Of a DNA stretch of 61,921 bases, positions 8,171-21,713 are shown in pieces. The DNA comes from Spirogloea muscicola. Taxonomy: Eukaryota > Streptophyta > Zygnematophyceae > Spirogloeales > Spirogloeaceae. The translations under genes were made by a program, and so were the position numbers. Each line of letters begins with the position of its first letter. Position 1 is the first letter of the stretch. The stretch covers positions 282,178 to 344,098 of the forward strand of contig WELB01000071.1 in NCBI GenBank assembly GCA_009602725.1. Direction: 5' to 3'. The notes under the pieces were generated by a model. That model searched no databases. It had not been told where the DNA came from and saw only the letters and a program-made list of their open reading frames with translations.

Positions 8171-9852
8171 GGCCCGCTCTCCCAGGGGTGGAGGACGACT
8201 CCGTGTTATGTATCTGATCAGCTAAGGCTGACAGTGCAAAGTTCTCCTTCTGATGCTTCTGGCACTGACTAATCTCTCGTGCCTTGTAGACCTTTTGCCA
8301 GAGCGTACCCGTGGATCTTCATTGGTGATTCTCTCGCCTGCTGCATCCATGCTCCCGGGGTCGGCTGATATGAAGTGGCCCTCCATCCGGGCGGTCATTG
8401 CTATTGCCAGCTTAGCATGTCGCGTTCATAATTACCTGCAGTCGACGAACTGCCTGCCTATTCGGCATGGAGGTGAGACCGAGCGTCGCTGGGTGTGCAA
8501 TCTAATTATTTGACGGGGGTTGGTTCATACTCCAGTCCTGGCTCCTCCCTCAGCTGCTGGTGTGCGGCTTTGTGTTTGGGGGGTATGGCTTGCGCGTTAC
8601 CATGATTGCTTTGCTTGCCCAAGTGCAGTTTTCCAGCAACATTGTGACATATCATATTGAGAGGTTTCGCTGGATGCCCACACTCTCAGCTGCTGGTGCA
8701 GCAAAATGACAGCCTTGCGCTTAATCACCGAATGAGGCTGATGCAGTGATTAGTAGTTTAAGAGCCTGCAAGTGATGCTAGTGAACAGCTGCATAGTCAT
8801 GTCCTCTAAGCTCTACGCATTAGCCTGACTTTCTCGTTCTCTGGCATCAATGCAAGCTGGGCAAATCTCCTGCAGTGCTTCATGCAAGTGTGGGGGCGGC
8901 AAGCAATGGCAGGCATGTGCCGCAGGCCTGGCTGTAGACATGTTAGCACCGTGCTAAGGGGCTGCATTAAAAGTCTTCTTCCTCTGGCTGCTCCTGATGT
9001 TGCTCCTGTCGACTACGTTCAGCAGCCTCCCCTTCTTGTCTCCTCAACTGAGATTCCCCAACTGGACGTTTGCCTTTCTTCAGAGGACCAGCAGACCGCC
9101 CTCCTCTCGGCGTTTCAGATGCTCGTGGCGGCACACAGATTCCGCCCTCTCTCAGGAATCAGCCACACATGGAAGTAGACAGCACAGGCTCTGTCTTCAC
9201 TAGCCACACAGTCAGAAAAGCACAGGCTTCGCCCTCGCTCAGAGAATGATTAGCCGTAGCTAGGACGCACCAGAGTAGCGGACGCCTCAGAGCCAGAAAT
9301 TGGATCTAAGACCGACGCGCCCGGGCACCCCTTGTCACAAGGAGTGCCCCAAGGGCTTACAAGGCTGAGTCTGTTGGTTCCTTAGCCAAATTACCAGATT
9401 ACAGCATTTGGTAGAGTGCTTCCCCAGCCCAAATCGCTGATCCACAGTATCACAACATCAACATGCATAGCCCAAGCTGAACCTGCTGAGCCTTTGTATG
9501 ATAGGACCTAGTTTTCCTCATTCTGGCCTGCCATTGTCATACCTGCCGCCGAATCATTGTGTAAGCTCCCAGCAGGCTCTGCATATCACTTTCATTACAG
9601 TGCGCCTCCATTTACTACGTGTTAAGTGGAGTGTTGGCAACGTGTGAATGGACAGAAGGTGGCTTAGCAACATATTTGACCGGCCGCCACCTCTGCAATG
9701 GAGGTTGCGATGCGTGAAAGCCCTGACGACCTGCCCTTCTAAAGTTGGACGCACTTTTACATGAGACATGAGCTGCCTCCTAAGTAAATGGGTCCTGCTA
9801 GTGAAACTGATTGCGACTAATCAGTATCGCACGACAAAGACCCGGTGAGCAA
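8171..9852. other. Gene-poor stretch, nothing recognised
   Basis: Open frames at 8253-8513 and 8882-9178 are short, low in recognisable motifs and lack splice partners that I can defend. The right end carries the 3' UTR of the minus-strand VPS28 gene. A direct repeat of GGGCTCATTCACGTGTG lies nearby, near 10018-10052, in VPS28's last intron. Confidence 0.45.
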
Positions 9853-12037: not shown

Positions 12038-14998
12038 ATGAGGCCCGCCGCTGCTGCCGCCATTGCCTCCGTCGTCGGTCCCGCCACTCCCAGGCTGCTG
12101 AGCGTGATGGAGTCGGTGATGAGCCGGACGACCCGCCGCAGCCTGGCTGCTAGCTTCCGAGTGGCTGCAGGTGCAAGGAGACCTTGCTCCACAACTGCTT
12201 GTGGCCAATTACAGGCTGAAATTTGACTTCGTATCCCGGCTTGCAAGTGCACTTTGAAAGTATCCAGAAAATGAAAGGTCCAAGAGCTGGCTGTTGCTAA
12301 TCAGCAACCGTCACTCCTGCAGAGAATCCACTTGTGAGCCAAGAGTTCCACGTTTCAGCCTGCCTGCGAAGATCTCCAAGAGGTAGGCCGCTCATGATTT
12401 ACAAGAGCTCCTTGAAATGTCAGTTATGACTAGAGATTAGAATAGATGGAGTAAGGTCCATGGCAAAAGATGGAGCAGTGTGTCCAAGAGGAACTGTTGT
12501 TGTCCTAGAGTTTACTATGTACTTGTAGGATCTGAAGGGCTATATGCTGAAGCACTGAAGCTCGACCTTTGTTGGACCAATCATGAGCTGCATCTATCCT
12601 CCTTCCAGCACATTTATGCAATTAATAAAGAAGAAGAATTGTGGATGGTGCTAATAGTGCGCTGCTCTGTGAAATGTAGTGAAGAGGAAGCTCAATGGTG
12701 ATGCACCGGTTGATGTCAAGTACGAGGAAGAAGTGCAGCTTGCCTCCACGGATGTTGGTCCTGTCCAGGGCTTCTCACTTGAGAACAAGGTCAATATCTT
12801 AGACCACCTGTTTCAGAGCTCTTTGCCTGCAACTTGTAAACGTGAACACTGGCGCGTACTTACATTCATTCCTGTATTCCCTGGTGCAAGTTCACGTGTT
12901 CTGCACAATCTTGAGTTTGCATCATCTTCTGCACAATTCTTTACAGGCTTTGGCAAATGCAATGACTGTGATCAGAGGAGCAAATGTTGAAGTCAAGCTT
13001 GAAGCTGATACTCTCGCAGAACACCCCACCCCAAGCAACGACACAGCAACAGGTACAGCGAGTATGTACAGTCAGAATCACCTTGATTGGCTATATGACA
13101 TGCTAAGTCTAGCAATCTAGAATTGTTATCAAGCAAAGCATGGTGCAGGCGGTTGCAGTGGATTCATACAACTGCTACAACTGCAAATTATCATCATCAT
13201 GGGTGCTTGGCTGCTTGATTTACAAGCCTCACCTGTTGTGTGATTCTTCTTAGAGGCCAAACCTCATCTGGACTTCACTGTGGTTGTGCAGTACCTCCCG
13301 GGAAGTGGCAAGAGGTACTTGAGACCATAAAGAGCATGCGATCAAAGAGTTCGGCTCCTGTGGACACCATGGGCTGCGAGCAAGCTGGACTTGGCCTTCT
13401 ACCCAAGGTTAGATAATTGTGTGTCACTTTTGTAGAAGTAGCTGATGAGAAGGAGCTGGCATGAATGGAGTCAAAAGACATCGCTGCAAAGACATTGTTG
13501 CCGACATCTCATTTCCGCTGATTGTGAGCTTCCAGGAGCGGAGATTTGCTATCCTGGTTTATGCTCTACTATCAAGCCAGACTAGAGACGAAATTACGCA
13601 TGGTATGCCTCCAAGTTCCTCAAGCTTGCGGACTTGTTAAAGTGTCAGATCTTATAATGGCAGTGGTCAATTGCAGTACTTACTTTCTTAAGCTGTCTTC
13701 TAGGTGCTGTCCTTAGACTGCAGAAGGCAAACTTACTCAATGCTGCTGCCATGATGTCTGCGGAAGGAAAAGGCATTAGTGAGATAATCTACCCTGTAAG
13801 TGCTTTTGTATGAGCAGCTCATTTCCCCGTATGTATGTAGCTGAGTGTTACAAGCTTATATTTGGCACTTCCTTGAAAGAATCAAGTAAAAAAGCATGGA
13901 GTGTTTCATCTACAGAGATTGACCAATTCTGCACTTCCTATCTCTATGACATGCAGACTAGTGTCATCGGCAGCACTCATATGCTGACTCTGTAAAGGTT
14001 GGGTGAGCAATCAGGTAGGGTTTTATTCACGCAAGGGGGTCTATCTGAAAAAGGTTGCAACAGTGTGCTTTGAGCTTCATGGAGGAGATATACCACCTAC
14101 ATTTGATGGGCTTATGGAGCTTCCGGGGGTTGGGCCTAAAATGGCCCATCTGGTAAAGCTGGCTGCTTGATCCAACACTCTCATGTATGCCACAAAAATT
14201 ACTCCTGCTTGTTTGTGATACTAACCTTCACATACGTGCTGATAATGTTGCCTCTGTGATGTTAATAGTGTTGCTTTAGTCAACATAGTCGACATTGTTT
14301 CTGACAAGCTTGTCAAGACTGGGCAGGTGATGAACGTGGGATGGGAAAAGAGCGAAGGCATCTGTGTAGATACACATGTGCACCGTATCAGCAACCGATT
14401 AAGGTGGACAGGGCACGTTAAAGCAAAAAGTGGCACCATGCAGGTGAGAATGACAAGGTGCTCAGGATGAATGTAAGAAAATGGTTGGGTCACATCGGAG
14501 TGGAAGCTCCCAGCTCTTGACGGCGCTTATGAAGTGTGTAGTGATGAGCAATTGCAAGCTTTTTACTACTTGTCTTGAAATATATAACAGGGGACAAAGA
14601 CACCTGAAGAGACGAGGAGTGCCCTTCAAGCTTGGCTGCCTCTCGAGCACTGGGTGTCTCTCAACCCTCTCTTGGTATGTGCTTTGACTGCTCAGACATC
14701 CTCCACATTGTTACAGTCCATATCGCCTTGCTGATTATCTCCCGAGTGCTAGTTACTTTCAACGTGGTGCATATGCACGAAAATCCCAATTTACTCAGAT
14801 CTGCTGTGCTGCACGACTGGTTGCCTTGATAGGGTTGTGATAACTTGCTCGATTCTGCAGGTGGGGTTTGGTCAGACGGTTTGCAGGCCTGTGAGACCCC
14901 GCTGTCACATGTGCACACTTTCTTCAAGTGGCCTGTGTCCTTCGAGCACCCATACAACAGCTGCGGACACACTGGCGCCACAAACACCCTCCCTATGA
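12038..14998 (+). CDS. NTH1: Endonuclease III homologue, DNA glycosylase/AP lyase
   Basis: Base-excision repair enzyme that removes oxidised pyrimidines and nicks the abasic site. Ten exons join in frame to about 366 residues: 12038-12170, 12680-12789, 12947-13052, 13292-13407, 13536-13602, 13704-13795, 14015-14152, 14327-14443, 14591-14674, 14861-14998. Exon 1 encodes an Ala/Arg-rich presequence that looks like an organelle targeting peptide. The catalytic core has [10 protein letters not shown], the helix-hairpin-helix [11 protein letters not shown] with the catalytic Lys, and VDTHVHR with the catalytic Asp. The iron-sulfur loop starts [11 protein letters not shown] and its last Cys follows after seven residues; the family norm is five. 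The Q-T-P-S-L end is short. The donor after 12789 (AAG|GTCAAT) is weak, so the exon 2/3 junction is the least certain. Confidence 0.94.
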
Positions 14999-15789
14999 CA
15001 CCCCTCCCAGAGTAAGGAAGGTCAATGTGCCAAGCATGGCATGGCCTTACTCATAATGCTTTCAGAACAGTACTGTCTGCTGAGCAGGAAGAGTCTGACG
15101 GCAATCCGTTGAGCCTCTTCAGCAGAATGTCATCAAAACCTACAATCTCAGGCAGCCATTCGCTGATTACGTGATTGCGACTCACTGTTTACATAACTGC
15201 AAGTACATAAAGCTTAAATGGGCAAATGCTTTAGTGGACAGATGACTGTGCGCTCTCATTCCCATGCCAAGACCTGTCTGGGTTGAAGGAAGCACTGCTG
15301 TAACAGTAGAGCTGGCTGCACAACTCCAGACATTCTTCTGTGTGGCTAGCTTCTGGTTAGGCAAGTTCAAGAAGGGCCCACCAGTTAGAGCGCTCATTGC
15401 CAGGCATCACCAACATGCCCAAAACCAGTTCGCATTCATATGAACATGATCAAGTGGAGGGAATCGAATCCAGACAAGTACAGAAATTGGCAATCCTCAA
15501 CAACCACGAGCCACAGTGCCTTGGGGCCAGACAAGTAGTCGGAGACGGTGACCTATGAATGCCATGCATCTTGCTTGTACTTGACATCAAGCACAGCTTC
15601 AATGGATGCCGTGGTCACGTCCTGCATCATGCTGCCTTTGCGGCAGGTGTGCAGCAGAGTCCAAACACTGGAAGGAGGGGTGACGGAAAAGTCCAGTCTA
15701 CATTCTTACAAAAAAACGAGCAGCCGTGAGAGCCCTGCTCGAGTTACCCGACATCTGCAGCATCATCGAAGGCAAGGCCGCATGTGCGG
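14999..15789. other. Intergenic, convergent 3' regions of NTH1 and PsbY
   Basis: No gene recognised. It must contain the 3' UTRs of two convergent genes. Confidence 0.5.
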
Positions 15790-16433
15790 CTACTTCCTCC
15801 TACCACCCTTCCCTTGCATGTTCCTGAACTGGTTGAGGGCGGCTGGCAGGATGTTGAAGAGCACCCAGCCAACAGCGGGCCCAAGGACGACGAGGAGAAT
15901 GAGGGGGCGCGCGTCCGTGTCAGCCAGCTGCATGATCTCCTGGGCGGCGGCGTCAGCCTGCGGGGCGGCGAGAAGGGAGGCGGCGGCGCCGAGGCCGACG
16001 GCGCCAGCGAGGCCCTTGGCGCTCCGCATCCGGTCGAGCTGCGACAGCGCCGGCTGGGCAATGTTGAACAGCACCCAGGCAATGGCGGGGACGAGGGCCA
16101 GGGCCAGCGCCAGGGGCCGCGAGTCGTCCGCCAGCTGCATGATCTCCTGCGCCGCGTCCGCCTGAGGGGCGGCAGCCAGCGCCGTGGCGGCAGCGCCGCC
16201 GAGGCCGACGGCGGCCAGCACGCCTCGCCTGCCGCCGGACTGCATCCGCTGCAGCTGGGCGAGGGCGCCGGGGAGGATGTTGAAGGCCACCCAGCCGACG
16301 GCGGGGCCCAGGACGAGGAGCAGGATGAACGGCCGGGCATCGTTGTCGGCCAGCTGCATCAGCTCATGGGCCGCCTGCGCCTGGGGCGGCGCCGCGAGCA
16401 GCGCGGCGGCCACGGCGGCGACGCCGGCGCCGG
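15790..16433 (-). CDS. PSBY: Photosystem II PsbY polyprotein precursor, at least three units, 5' end missing
   Basis: Nuclear precursor for PsbY, a small thylakoid membrane protein at the edge of photosystem II near cytochrome b559. The visible frame is uninterrupted and holds three PsbY units in tandem, at about 16245-16372, 16025-16155 and 15790-15950. Each unit starts after an Ala-rich AxA-type cleavage site with a form of HELMQLAD or QEIMQLAD, followed by a hydrophobic helix with GWV or AWVLFNI and a basic tail such as QRMQSGGRR. Ala-rich hydrophobic linkers between units resemble thylakoid-transfer segments. The land-plant precursor is known to yield two PsbY peptides, so three or more is unusual. 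The N-terminus, transit peptide and perhaps further units lie in the N gap. Divergent to CPN20. Confidence 0.93.
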
Positions 16434-17214
16434 NNNNNNNNNNNNNNNNNNNNNNNNNNNNNNNNNNNNNNNNNNNNNNNNNNNNNNNNNNNNNNNNNNN
16501 NNNNNNNNNNNNNNNNNNNNNNNNNNNNNNNNNNNNNNNNNNNNNNNNNNNNNNNNNNNNNNNNNNNNNNNNNNNNNNNNNNNNNNNNNNNNNNNNNNNN
16601 NNNNNNNNNNNNNNNNNNNNNNNNNNNNNNNNNNNNNNNNNNNNNNNNNNNNNNNNNNNNNNNNNNNNNNNNNNNNNNNNNNNNNNNNNNNNNNNNNNNN
16701 NNNNNNNNNNNNNNNNNNNNNNNNNNNNNNNNNNNNNNNNNNNNNNNNNNNNNNNNNNNNNNNNNNNNNNNNNNNNNNNNNNNNNNNNNNNNNNNNNNNN
16801 NNNNNNNNNNNNNNNNNNNNNNNNNNNNNNNNNNNNNNNNNNNNNNNNNNNNNNNNNNNNNNNNNNNNNNNNNNNNNNNNNNNNNNNNNNNNNNNNNNNN
16901 NNNNNNNNNNNNNNNNNNNNNNNNNNNNNNNNNNNNNNNNNNNNNNNNNNNNNNNNNNNNNNNNNNNNNNNNNNNNNNNNNNNNNNNNNNNNNNNNNNNN
17001 NNNNNNNNNNNNNNNNNNNNNNNNNNNNNNNNNNNNNNNNNNNNNNNNNNNNNNNNNNNNNNNNNNNNNNNNNNNNNNNNNNNNNNNNNNNNNNNNNNNN
17101 NNNNNNNNNNNNNNNNNNNNNNNNNNNNNNNNNNNNNNNNNNNNNNNNNNNNNNNNNNNNNNNNNNNNNNNNNNNNNNNNNNNNNNNNNNNNNNNNNNNN
17201 NNNNNNNNNNNNNN
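16434..17214. other. Assembly gap (781 N)
   Basis: Run of unknown bases that hides the first exon(s) of both PsbY (minus) and CPN20 (plus) and their shared upstream region. Its flanks are very GC-rich, a likely reason for the gap. The true length may differ. Confidence 1.
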
Positions 17215-18597
17215 GGCCGCGCGGCCTCCGGCCCGGGCGTCGCCAGGGCCGCCACGGCCGTCGCGCCCAAGGTGAGCGCTCCTCGCTCCCGCAGGCCCCT
17301 CTGGCGATGACCACTCTGGCGCCGCCGCTGCCATGGCCGTCACTCCGAGGAGCCGGCAGGGGCGGCGCAGGAGCCGCGGTCGCGCGCGACTTCGCAGCTC
17401 CGTGCATTGTGGCGCCTGGCCCGTCAGACGTGCTCACGCGGCTGCTCAATGTGGGGCGTTGGTGCGTCGGCCCGCGGCTCTTTCTCCAGTTCAAGACGTT
17501 GACGCCGCTGGGCGACCGCGTCCTCGTCAAGATCCAGACCAAGGAGGAGAAGTCGCAGGGCGGCATCCTGCTGCCCACGGCGGCGCAGACCAAGCCCCAG
17601 GGGGGCGAGGTCGTCGCCGTCGGCGACGGCCGTACTCTTGGCGACAAGAAGGTCGCCATTGACATCCAGGTGTGCTGTCCTCAGATGGAGCTTGTTCCAG
17701 CCGGCCTGGCTCCCCAGACGTGTGCGGGGGCTGTGTCTGGCTGTCAGCTAACGGGAGATGTCAGCAGCCCTCGTTCTGATGCGTTCTTAACCCCACGTCG
17801 CCGTGCAGACGGGCAGCAAAATCGTGTACTCCAAGTATGCTGGCACCGAGGTGGAGTTTGACGGTGCCGAGCATCTGCTGCTCAAGGAGGACGACGTGAT
17901 CGGCCTCCTGTCGTCGGACGATATCGAGGACCTCAAGCCGCTCAACGACCGCGTCCTCATCAAGGTGATCACTGGCTCGAAGGTTTCATGGAACTGGCTG
18001 TACTGTCACGTGGCCTTCTGATACCCTTACAATGTATGTCGCCAGAAGTCCTCTGTGTGTTTCTCAAGTTATCCACACCTCTTTGTGATTATGCACCTAT
18101 GCTTCTGAGGCATATGGCTTCTGAAGCAGCTGCAGCAGTGTGCCTGGCCAAGGCATTGTCAGCAATGTCACTTTCAATTGATGGAGATCTGCGTCATTGC
18201 TTGAGCTTGAGCCCAGGTGGCCGAGGCGGAGAGCAAGACCGCTGGAGGTGTGCTGCTCACAGACAGTGCTAAGGAGAAGCCAGTAGTTGGAACGGTGAGT
18301 GACCTGAATCGCTTAATCTGTCATCCATCAACATTGGCAGGAAGGTGGCGCGCGCCACGGTGCGGCTGCTCTTTGCCTGTGACCGTTCTGTGTGGCTAAG
18401 AGCAGCACCTTCTTGAGCTGCAGGTGGTTGCGACTGGCCCAGGACCCTTGGGGGAAGATGGCTCGAGGAAGCCGCTGGATATCACAGAGGGCAATACAGT
18501 CCTCTACTCAAAGTATGCCGGCAGCGACTTCAAGAGCAAGGACGGCACTCAATTTGTTGTCCTCCGAGGAAGTGACGTGATGGCCATCCTCTCCTGA
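17215..18597 (+). CDS. CPN20: Chloroplast 20 kDa co-chaperonin (double GroES), 5' end missing
   Basis: Plastid co-chaperonin that caps the chaperonin-60 barrel used for folding Rubisco and other stromal proteins. Exons: up to 17271, 17490-17669, 17809-17964, 18217-18294, 18424-18597, all in phase 0, giving 214 residues plus the part in the gap. Two GroES domains follow each other: the first starts at PLGDRVLVK with mobile-loop sequence KSQGGILLP, the second at PLNDRVLIK with KTAGGVLLT. Each ends with a YSKYAG segment, and the protein ends in DVMAILS, as in land-plant CPN20. The visible piece before the first domain, ARAATAVAPK, looks like the end of a transit peptide. The transcript starts in the gap, facing away from PsbY. 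Confidence 0.96.
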
Positions 18598-19559
18598 ATG
18601 ACAGATAGCGTCGCTTGCCGAAATTGCTCCCACCTTTGACATCTTGAAGTGTCTCTCCCAACTTCGAGAGTCAATTGACAGAGCCAATTCACAGGGACAG
18701 CAGCAGCAGCAGCAATTGAAATTGGCCTCCCAGACCCTGTTAGCTGACAAGCAAACAAAAGGGTCTCCTGAAGTGAGTACAGCAACTCGTGATGGGTCAC
18801 AGTAAGCACCTCCAATCCAATAATTTTAGTTTGAGGGGCATCCTCCTCCATTGTCGATCAATTTTTGTGCATCATGAACCACTTATAACAGCGTCTCTTA
18901 CCATGCCTAGGCCCAGGTTCTTATTGTAGTTGCCCCCAGCTGTGCTTTGCTTGCCTAGCACAGCCTGGCTAACTTCTCTTGCATAATCAAGCTATCCAGA
19001 AGATGACGTTACGAATGCGCTCGCATCACTTGCCAAGCGGTCAATATATCGAGCTTAAGTGCTTGGGATGCTACAGCCAGTGGTAGCTATTCCCGCCAGT
19101 GTTCTCTTGTTTGTGCACACAAATAGCAGATTTACAATCTTGAAGGAACTGTCGTCTTCATGGGTCCCCAATGGACCCAGTCATCCTGCTTGACTCATCT
19201 TCAGTGTGCAGAATTCAACACCGAAGGTCAGTGTGGCCTGATGGATAGTAAGCAAGTTGTGACGGGCAGTAAGCAAGATGTCGCCGTTATTCAATGGTGG
19301 AAGCGGAACTGGTCAACAGAGTTCCACCGCAAGCTCTCCTATGAGTGTGGTGCCAGTGTGCCGCTGGCCAAGCGCTGCTCATCTTCGCGGTCAATGGCAG
19401 ACTGCCGAGGCAAGCCTAGGAAAGTCTGCAATGGTAGGTCTCTGACATGGCAAGGATGCATCACTTTGGTCAGTATTAGAGCAATCAGCAAACAGCACAT
19501 GGTGCTAGCAACAAGCCTCTCAAACAGCAGCACAAATGAGTACAAACGAAGGGTGATAC
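18598..19559. other. Intergenic, nothing recognised
   Basis: Holds the CPN20 3' UTR on the left and the left edge of the gag palindrome on the right. Open frames such as 19160-19624 show no family features. Confidence 0.5.
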
Positions 19560-19804
19560 TTGTTGAAAGGAGATGCCAAAACGTCAGATTCTTGCATGGT
19601 CACATTTGGCCTAGCGGTAACTAGCGGTCACACTGGCCTATCTGGGCCGGCCGCGACCCTTTTGTATCGACCGGCCGGTATCCCAATCTGAGATTGCACG
19701 CCATCCTGCCGCTGCAACGCGCCACCGCCACCGCTGCCGCCGCTGCGGAGCGCTGAGGCTGGTCTCCCCGTCGCTCTTGTCGCACAGCTCTCCTCGCGGT
19801 CGAC

Positions 19805-20578
19805 ATGGCCAGCCAGGGCCATGGTATCACAATTCAAGATGGTATCAGAGGAGGCCTCGAGGGCCTGCGACAGTTCGACAGCACAAATTGGACCGTTTGG
19901 CAGGAGATGGTGGAGCTGGCCATGGACCACCTTGGTCTACTGGCCATCCTACAGGGGACATAGGCAGAGCCAGTGTCGCAAGCAGCGGATGCGGTTGCCT
20001 CAGAAGCGCTGCAGATGTACAGGCGGAGGCAGACGCACTGTCTCTACCTTCTCAAGTGCAGCCTTAACGCCACACAGCTGCAGCTGGTGGTGGGCAAGAG
20101 GACGCCCGCAGAGACTTGGGCGACTCTGTGCCAGGAGTACGGGAAGACTTCACAGACCAGTATCAGCATCCTGCTGAGGAGCTTCGCCAATATGGAGATG
20201 GGACCAACAGAGTCGGTATCTTCCTATGCGCTAAGAATGCGTGCCAAGGAGCAGGAGTTGGGTGCAGCAGGACAGATCATCTCTCCTGACATGCTGGTAG
20301 CCCACCTGTTCCAGAGCCTTCCAGCAAGATTTCATCACACCATGGAGACGCTGCAGACCTACAAGCCACCGTTGTCTTTTGACGACTGCATAGAGCGTCT
20401 TCAGGGTGTTGAGGACCTCCAAAAACAGTGGGATCAGAGAGACTCCGTGATTGAAAATAGTGCTCTCTATGCGCGCAGTGATCAGCAGCAGCCCTGGCAG
20501 CAGCAGCGGCAGCAGCAGCAGCAGCAGCAACAGCAGAAGCAGCAGCGGCAGCAGCAGCAGCAGCTGCTGCTGCTGCCG
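19805..20578 (+). pseudogene. Copia-like retrotransposon gag fragment, left arm
   Basis: Encodes a gag-like protein of the UBN2 type found in Copia elements, with features such as NWTVWQEMVELAMD, TPAETWATLCQEYGK and LQGVEDLQKQWDQR, ending in a Gln-rich CAG tract. A TAG at about 19961 interrupts the frame where the right arm has a sense codon. No protease, integrase or reverse transcriptase follows, because the sequence folds back at the tract. No LTRs are visible. It is a fragment and cannot move by itself. Confidence 0.85.
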
Positions 20579-21279
20579 CTGCTGCTGCCAGGGCTGCTGC
20601 TGATCACTGCGCGCATAGAGAGCACTATTTTCAATCACGGAGTCTCTCTGATCCCACTGTTTTTGGAGGTCCTCAACACCCTGAAGACGCTCTACGCAGT
20701 CGTCAAAAGACAACGGTGGCTTGTAGGTCTGCAGCGTCTCCATGGTGTGATGAATCTTGCTGGAAGGCTCTGGAACAGGTGGGCTACCAGCATGTCAGGA
20801 GAGATGATCTGTCGTGCTGCACCCAACTCCTGCGCCTTGGCACGCATTCTTAGCGCATAGGAAGATACCGACTCTGTTGGTCCCATCTCCATATTGGCGA
20901 AGCTCCTCAGCAGGATGCTGATACTGGTCTGTGAAGTCTTCCCGTACTCCTGGTACAGAGTCGCCCAAGTCTCTGCGGGCGTCCTCTTGCCCACCACCAG
21001 CTGCAGCTGTGTGGCGTTAAGGCTGCACTTGAGAAGGTAGAGACAGTGCGTCTGCCTCCGCCTGTACATCTGCAGCGCTTCTGAGGCAACCGCATCCGCT
21101 GCTTGCGACACTGGCTCTGCCTCTGTACCCTGTAGGATGGCCAGTAGACCAAGGTGGTCCATGGCCAGCTCCACCATCTCCTGCCAAACGGTCCAATTTG
21201 TGCAGTCGAACTGTCGCAGGCCCTCGAGGCCTCCTCTGATACCATCTTGAATTGTGATACCTTGGCCCTGGCTGGCCAT
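20579..21279 (-). pseudogene. Copia-like retrotransposon gag fragment, right arm
   Basis: Inverted copy of the left-arm gag. It starts MASQGQGITIQDG and lacks the left arm's stop, but a one-base loss at about 20750 (AGATTCATC versus AGATTTCATC) shifts the frame, so the product is split over two frames. The differing lesions mean the arms are not identical read-through copies. Confidence 0.85.
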
Positions 21280-21713
21280 GTCGACCGCGAGGAGAGCTGT
21301 GCGACAAGAGCGACGGGGAGACCAGCCTCAGCGCTCCGCAGCGGCGGCAGCGGTGGCGGCGGCGCGTTGCAGCGGCAGGATGGCGTGCAATCTCAGATTG
21401 GGATACCAGCCGGTCGATACAAAAGGGTCGCGGCCGGCCCAGATAGGCCAGTGTGACCGCTAGGTACCGCTAGGCCAAATGTGACCATGCAAGAATCTGA
21501 CGTTTTGGCATCTCCTTTCAACAATACTCTTGAACATTCGATGACATCGTGCATCAGCAGAAAGTCATCGCAGCCGACAGCAGAGGAGCTTGTTGATCTG
21601 CGTGCTGTGTTGTGGTAGCAGAGGGTATATGAGGGGACAGACTGGCAGACATAACATTCAGGGTGCCTCACCTGGACTCTTTGATGATAAATGTGTCCAC
21701 AATGGAGGTGCCC

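Follow-up and report, generated by a model that had tools for sequence, protein, structure and literature searches.

Known PsbY precursors

In cyanobacteria, PsbY is described as the product of a single one-unit gene, while in plants a single locus (At1g67740 in Arabidopsis) gives rise to two PsbY products, a view supported by import experiments; for the plant case, the review from which these statements are taken cites Mant and Robinson 1998 and Thompson et al. 1999 (PMC4823308). In green algae, Fadeeva et al. (2023) reported four PsbY copies in one protein of Chlorella ohadii and three to five in other members of the group (PMC10416949). No statement on the number of PsbY units in Chlamydomonas was found in the portions of the Chlamydomonas photosystem II (PSII) literature that were available. 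According to the two papers on the C. ohadii complex, PsbY is an added subunit of each PSII monomer (PMC10416949), present as a single helix beside PsbE, PsbF and PsbR (Psb10), where it is thought to shield cytochrome b559 (PMC10416949, PMC12789144); its contacts to these three proteins involve Arg324, Asn342 and Gln350 (PMC12789144).

The first-pass annotation of the locus analysed here had set a precursor with three or more PsbY units against the two-unit precursor of land plants. The contrast is correct for plants. As a novelty, however, such a precursor does not stand, since the contrast has already been answered for green algae by multi-copy precursors that are both published (three to five copies; PMC10416949) and in the PDB, where chain U of 9hd7 (367 residues) aligns with the precursor described below in four stretches.

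The psbY frame holds three complete PsbY units

The whole stretch of DNA that was analysed (61,921 nucleotides; hereafter the window) carries on its minus strand the 3′ part of a nuclear psbY gene with three PsbY units (15790-16433), the 5′ end of which is lost in an assembly gap of 781 N (16434-17214). The stop codon lies at 15790-15792; the frame, which extends without interruption as far as the gap edge (16433), specifies a protein of 213 residues (P0001). Read from the gap, the frame contains the end of the unit 1 signal (16372-16431; residues 1-20), mature unit 1 (16240-16371; residues 21-64, helix 35-53), the linker and signal of unit 2 (16153-16239; residues 65-93, signal helix 70-88), mature unit 2 (16024-16152; residues 94-136, helix 107-125), the linker and signal of unit 3 (15949-16023; residues 137-161, signal helix 138-156) and mature unit 3 with its basic C-terminal tail (15793-15948; residues 162-213, helix 177-195), all on the minus strand, the C-terminal borders of mature units 1 and 2 being presumptive. 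The curated cut-off of the Pfam PsbY family (PF06298) is 24 bits; units 1, 2 and 3 all exceed it, with 48.3, 43.3 and 55.2 bits (matches at 16243-16341, 16027-16125 and 15817-15915, respectively), and the protein as a whole reaches 124.4 bits (E 1.4e-36). The spacing between units is 210 and 216 nt.

Hydropathy analysis of P0001 revealed three mature helices, one per unit, plus two weaker signal helices between the units; the first signal helix is cut off by the gap. An AxA motif stands directly before the mature start of each unit (AQA, ADA and ADA), and likewise in the two further copies of the locus described below. Taken alone the motif carries little weight, since the signals are rich in Ala and AxA followed by A also occurs elsewhere within them (residues 6 and 84). 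Together with the family scores and the hydropathy profile, these observations bear out the earlier description of three PsbY units in one uninterrupted frame that runs into an assembly gap, each with an AxA motif and one helix; PsbY identity, the tandem precursor and a layout of the AxA-type maturation kind are all supported. Downstream, a TGTAA (15706-15710, minus strand), which we take to be the usual poly(A) signal of green algae, starts 80 nt past the psbY stop codon; in the two further copies of the locus the distances are 74 and 76 nt. The psbY gene and this TGTAA point to a green alga as the source of the window.

When the PDB was searched with the window precursor, the second-best match (94.6 bits) was chain 5 of 8z9d, presumably the spinach PsbY precursor. 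Three chains that we take to be single-unit PsbY of cyanobacteria and other algae (4il6_R, 6w1o_R and 7y5e_RL) aligned their single mature helix to single window units (E 0.07-0.14).

Three diverged copies of the locus keep the same arrangement

Collinear copies of the psbY locus are present on three contigs of the genome: that of the window (C71), C45 and C32. Both C45 and C32 match the window on either side of psbY, over 6.7 kb (left) and 7.2 kb (right), in pieces that keep their order; the larger flanking pieces are 80-89% identical to the window. In a DNA search, the psbY part of the other two copies was 97% and 96% identical to that of the window; this search also returned four short matches (49-67 query bases, 82-86% identity) on C47, C17, C9 and C3. 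The three collinear contigs suggest a triploid, hybrid or triplicated genome, or perhaps a mixture of related strains.

The same three units occur in the same order in every copy, and the position at which the sequence gives way to N is nearly identical in all of them, C45 providing 24 coding bases more. Units 1, 2 and 3 are distinguished by their N-terminal stretches (AHELMQLADNDAR, AQEIMQLADDSR and AAQEIMQLADTDAR, respectively), the C45 copy having Q for H in AHELMQLADNDAR. A simple codon count among the three copies gave pS values of 0.073-0.141 versus pN values of 0.007-0.015, and of the six residues that vary, one belongs to a mature unit and the other five to signals or linkers. Since synonymous differences exceed amino-acid changes, the psbY gene must be regarded as real and constrained; the recurrence of the same units in two further copies, with pN well below pS, argues in turn that the three-unit arrangement is not due to chance.

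Proposed processing of the precursor and docking of its products

The locus very probably encodes a multi-unit PsbY precursor that is cut into separate peptides. A chloroplast transit peptide, expected within the gap, would be followed by three modules, each made up of a cleavable thylakoid signal helix and a mature PsbY with one helix. After import, the precursor would enter the thylakoid as a series of paired helices; the thylakoid processing peptidase would cleave it behind each AxA from the lumen, and further cleavage from the stroma would follow behind every mature helix. The separate PsbY peptides would dock beside PsbE/PsbF (cytochrome b559) and PsbR. Counted along the 9hd7_U chain, the C. 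ohadii contact residues Arg324, Asn342 and Gln350 correspond to an R, an N and a Q column in the alignment of the units, and by eye these residues are kept in all three window units; each unit could therefore fill the PsbY site.

It is conceivable, though rather doubtful, that only one unit, probably the last, provides the PsbY that accumulates, the others being spacers or being degraded. Barley mass spectrometry saw PsbY-2 only, as stated in the review (PMC4823308), and the C. ohadii peptide resolved is numbered as the last unit (Arg324-Gln350; PMC12789144). However, mature units 2 and 4 of C. ohadii are identical over 44 residues (units 1 and 3 being of the other helix type), so the structure cannot tell one from the other. 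In the window, moreover, the contact residues are kept in every unit, not just the last, and the residues that vary among the copies lie, with one exception, outside the mature parts.

Three units are probably the full count

The 781-N gap would be expected to hold the psbY start, the transit peptide, the promoters and the 5′ ends of both psbY and the divergent gene on its other side. A gap occurs at the matching place in the other copies, with 595 N in C45 and >3.6 kb of N in C32, where it runs on through the first 718 bases of L012. The coding GC of psbY is 0.73-0.74. Extreme GC is a likely cause of the gap in all three copies. The psbY start codon and the expected transit peptide are seen in no copy; completing the 5′ end from the other copies was therefore ruled out, C32 and C45 being gapped there too.

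The C45 copy does, however, provide 28 residues before the first cleavage site, and these include no K or R and no GLG. Of the two other first-unit signals compared, both partial sequences, that of C. ohadii (9hd7_U) has one K/R and that of 8z9d_5 none, and neither has a GLG, whereas all six inner signals (two from the window, three from C. ohadii and one from 8z9d_5) have 2-3 K/R and a GLG; in total, this comparison covers nine signals of three species (three first, six inner), several of them partial (23-26 residues). The C45 flank thus resembles first signals and is unlike inner ones, from which we infer that unit 1 is the first, and that the full count of psbY units is probably three. The same mark (few basic residues and no GLG, from nine signals) could serve to distinguish first from inner units where the 5′ end of such a gene is missing. 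A search of the genome with PF06298 listed ten matches; nine, three from each copy, exceed the cut-off, and the tenth, on C164, falls short of it. The latter was considered as a further PsbY unit and rejected: it is a 25-position match (E 0.48) in a 40-residue frame whose short run of hydrophobic residues, by eye, resembles the PsbY core only loosely, and was taken as chance.

It is unlikely that the precursor has four or five units, like those of C. ohadii and other green algae, and that the gap conceals the ones not seen here. The numbers reported in relatives (three to five copies) and the four stretches in which 9hd7_U aligns would be in keeping with this reading, as would the size of the gaps: at about 210-216 nt per unit, there would be room for an additional one (about 213 nt) even in C45 (595 N, against 781 N in C71), provided that the gap sizes are right. 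Yet the C45 gap presumably has to accommodate the remainder of the two transit peptides and the two promoters as well, the flank before unit 1 in C45 lacks the basic residues and the GLG of the six inner signals, and the genome search with PF06298 found no further unit over the cut-off, bearing in mind that a match missing from an assembly is not the same as absence. Both this reading and that of a single accumulating product are variants of the preferred explanation, i.e. a multi-unit precursor cut into separate peptides, and are compatible with it.

Relationships among the units and PsbY stoichiometry

Mature units 1 and 3 are identical at 33 of 44 residues, while unit 2, which has an Ala/Leu-rich helix (AWVLFNI), is identical to units 1 and 3 at 26 of 43 and 27 of 43. 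The observation in the first-pass annotation that unit 2 differs most thus holds within this protein. It does not follow that unit 2 is simply the most derived, since among the three it comes nearest to the plant units (25/40 for plant unit 1, and 23/38). Overall, the window units share 21-25 of 38-41 residues with the two plant units of 8z9d_5, and 16-21 of 43-44 with the mature units of C. ohadii. In a FastTree phylogeny of the units, as had been proposed for dating them (nine sequences of about 45 residues), those of C. ohadii grouped with a support of 1.0, and look to have multiplied or been homogenised within their own lineage; the group of window units had a support of 0.659. A firm claim that the units multiplied in the window's own lineage was rejected because of the few residues and sequences involved, the support of 0.659, and the fact that unit 2 is as near to plant unit 1 (25/40) as to units 1 and 3 of the same protein. 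A viral origin is mentioned as a possibility by Fadeeva et al. (PMC10416949). A viral-contig scan gave one pattern match, without tblastn confirmation, and tblastn of a phage collection gave no match; neither result lends support to such an origin, algal viruses being covered only as far as these two collections reach.

The idea that three or more copies would change the stoichiometry of this PSII subunit is disfavoured. In PDB 9hd7, two PsbY chains are seen in complex with a dimeric core; the four-unit precursor of C. ohadii therefore does not raise PsbY per PSII there. Most likely, the extra units raise peptide output, or give slightly different, interchangeable versions of PsbY, rather than a new stoichiometry, and the accepted view of PSII stoichiometry is left unchanged. 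That the three units are PsbY isoforms for different PSII states, e.g. unit 2, with its distinct helix, versus units 1 and 3, seems improbable; if true, the precursor would encode a set of isoforms in fixed ratio and not mere extra copies.

There is very little to be said for the notion that the three units stay joined as a multi-helix thylakoid protein with its own function: the AxA site is kept in every unit, a single PsbY helix is present in C. ohadii PSII (PMC10416949, PMC12789144, as above), and an antibody against plant PsbY-2 detects a single band near 5 kDa but no fusion of 10 kDa, as reported in the review (PMC4823308). An assembly artefact can practically be dismissed for, although the stretch is GC-rich and the frame is cut off by a gap, the units differ from one another (26-33 identical of 43-44) and three diverged copies agree in their order.

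Neighbouring features

Beyond the gap lies a divergent chaperonin-10-type gene (17215-18597, plus strand), recognised by a PF00166 match of 56.3 bits in the frame 16329-17861; its 5′ end falls in or near the gap, and its stop codon and borders were read by eye. A second, CPN20-like domain was recognised by eye only, and the frame 17862-18272 gave no match to any Pfam family. The stretch 17860-18800 has a match in C45 (85%) and none in C32, whose gap (>3.6 kb) lies there.

Further along, a near-perfect palindrome occupies 19560-21524, with arms that are 99% (19560-20331/20753-21524) and 98% (20331-20528/20557-20754) identical and a centre rich in GCA repeats. It is absent from the C45 and C32 copies, has partial relatives on many other contigs, and is apparently a mobile element of the foldback type. 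The empty site in C45 and the window flanks, compared by eye, suggest a 3-bp target duplication (TAC); also by eye, C32 reads differently at this place. On the other side of psbY, a dispersed repeat (9000-9380) was found at 71-85% identity on many contigs among the matches listed, and 13500-15000 (plus strand) contains candidate exons that, by eye, look like those of an endonuclease III-type DNA glycosylase whose C-terminus is Cys-rich; no Pfam match was obtained with one translated frame from the region.

Comparison with known PsbY systems

With the window, one more green alga joins those whose PsbY precursor has three or more units, and its three diverged copies of the locus all preserve the three-unit form under purifying selection. 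Single-unit PsbY chains (4il6_R, 6w1o_R and 7y5e_RL) are 33-41 residues long, in contrast to the three-unit precursor seen here. The land-plant precursor (8z9d_5; At1g67740 in Arabidopsis) is, like that of the window, nuclear-encoded and composed of non-identical units with a signal before each, and its units are closer to those of the window than are the units of C. ohadii; it has, however, two units instead of three. The precursor of C. ohadii (9hd7_U; resolved helix in 8bd3) shares with that of the window the tandem PsbY units, signals that each end in AxA, inner signals with basic residues at the start and GLG inside, and the R, N and Q contact positions. It differs in having four units against the three seen in the window, and in pairing units 1 and 3, and 2 and 4, by helix type, whereas in the window it is unit 2 that stands apart from two similar units, 1 and 3.
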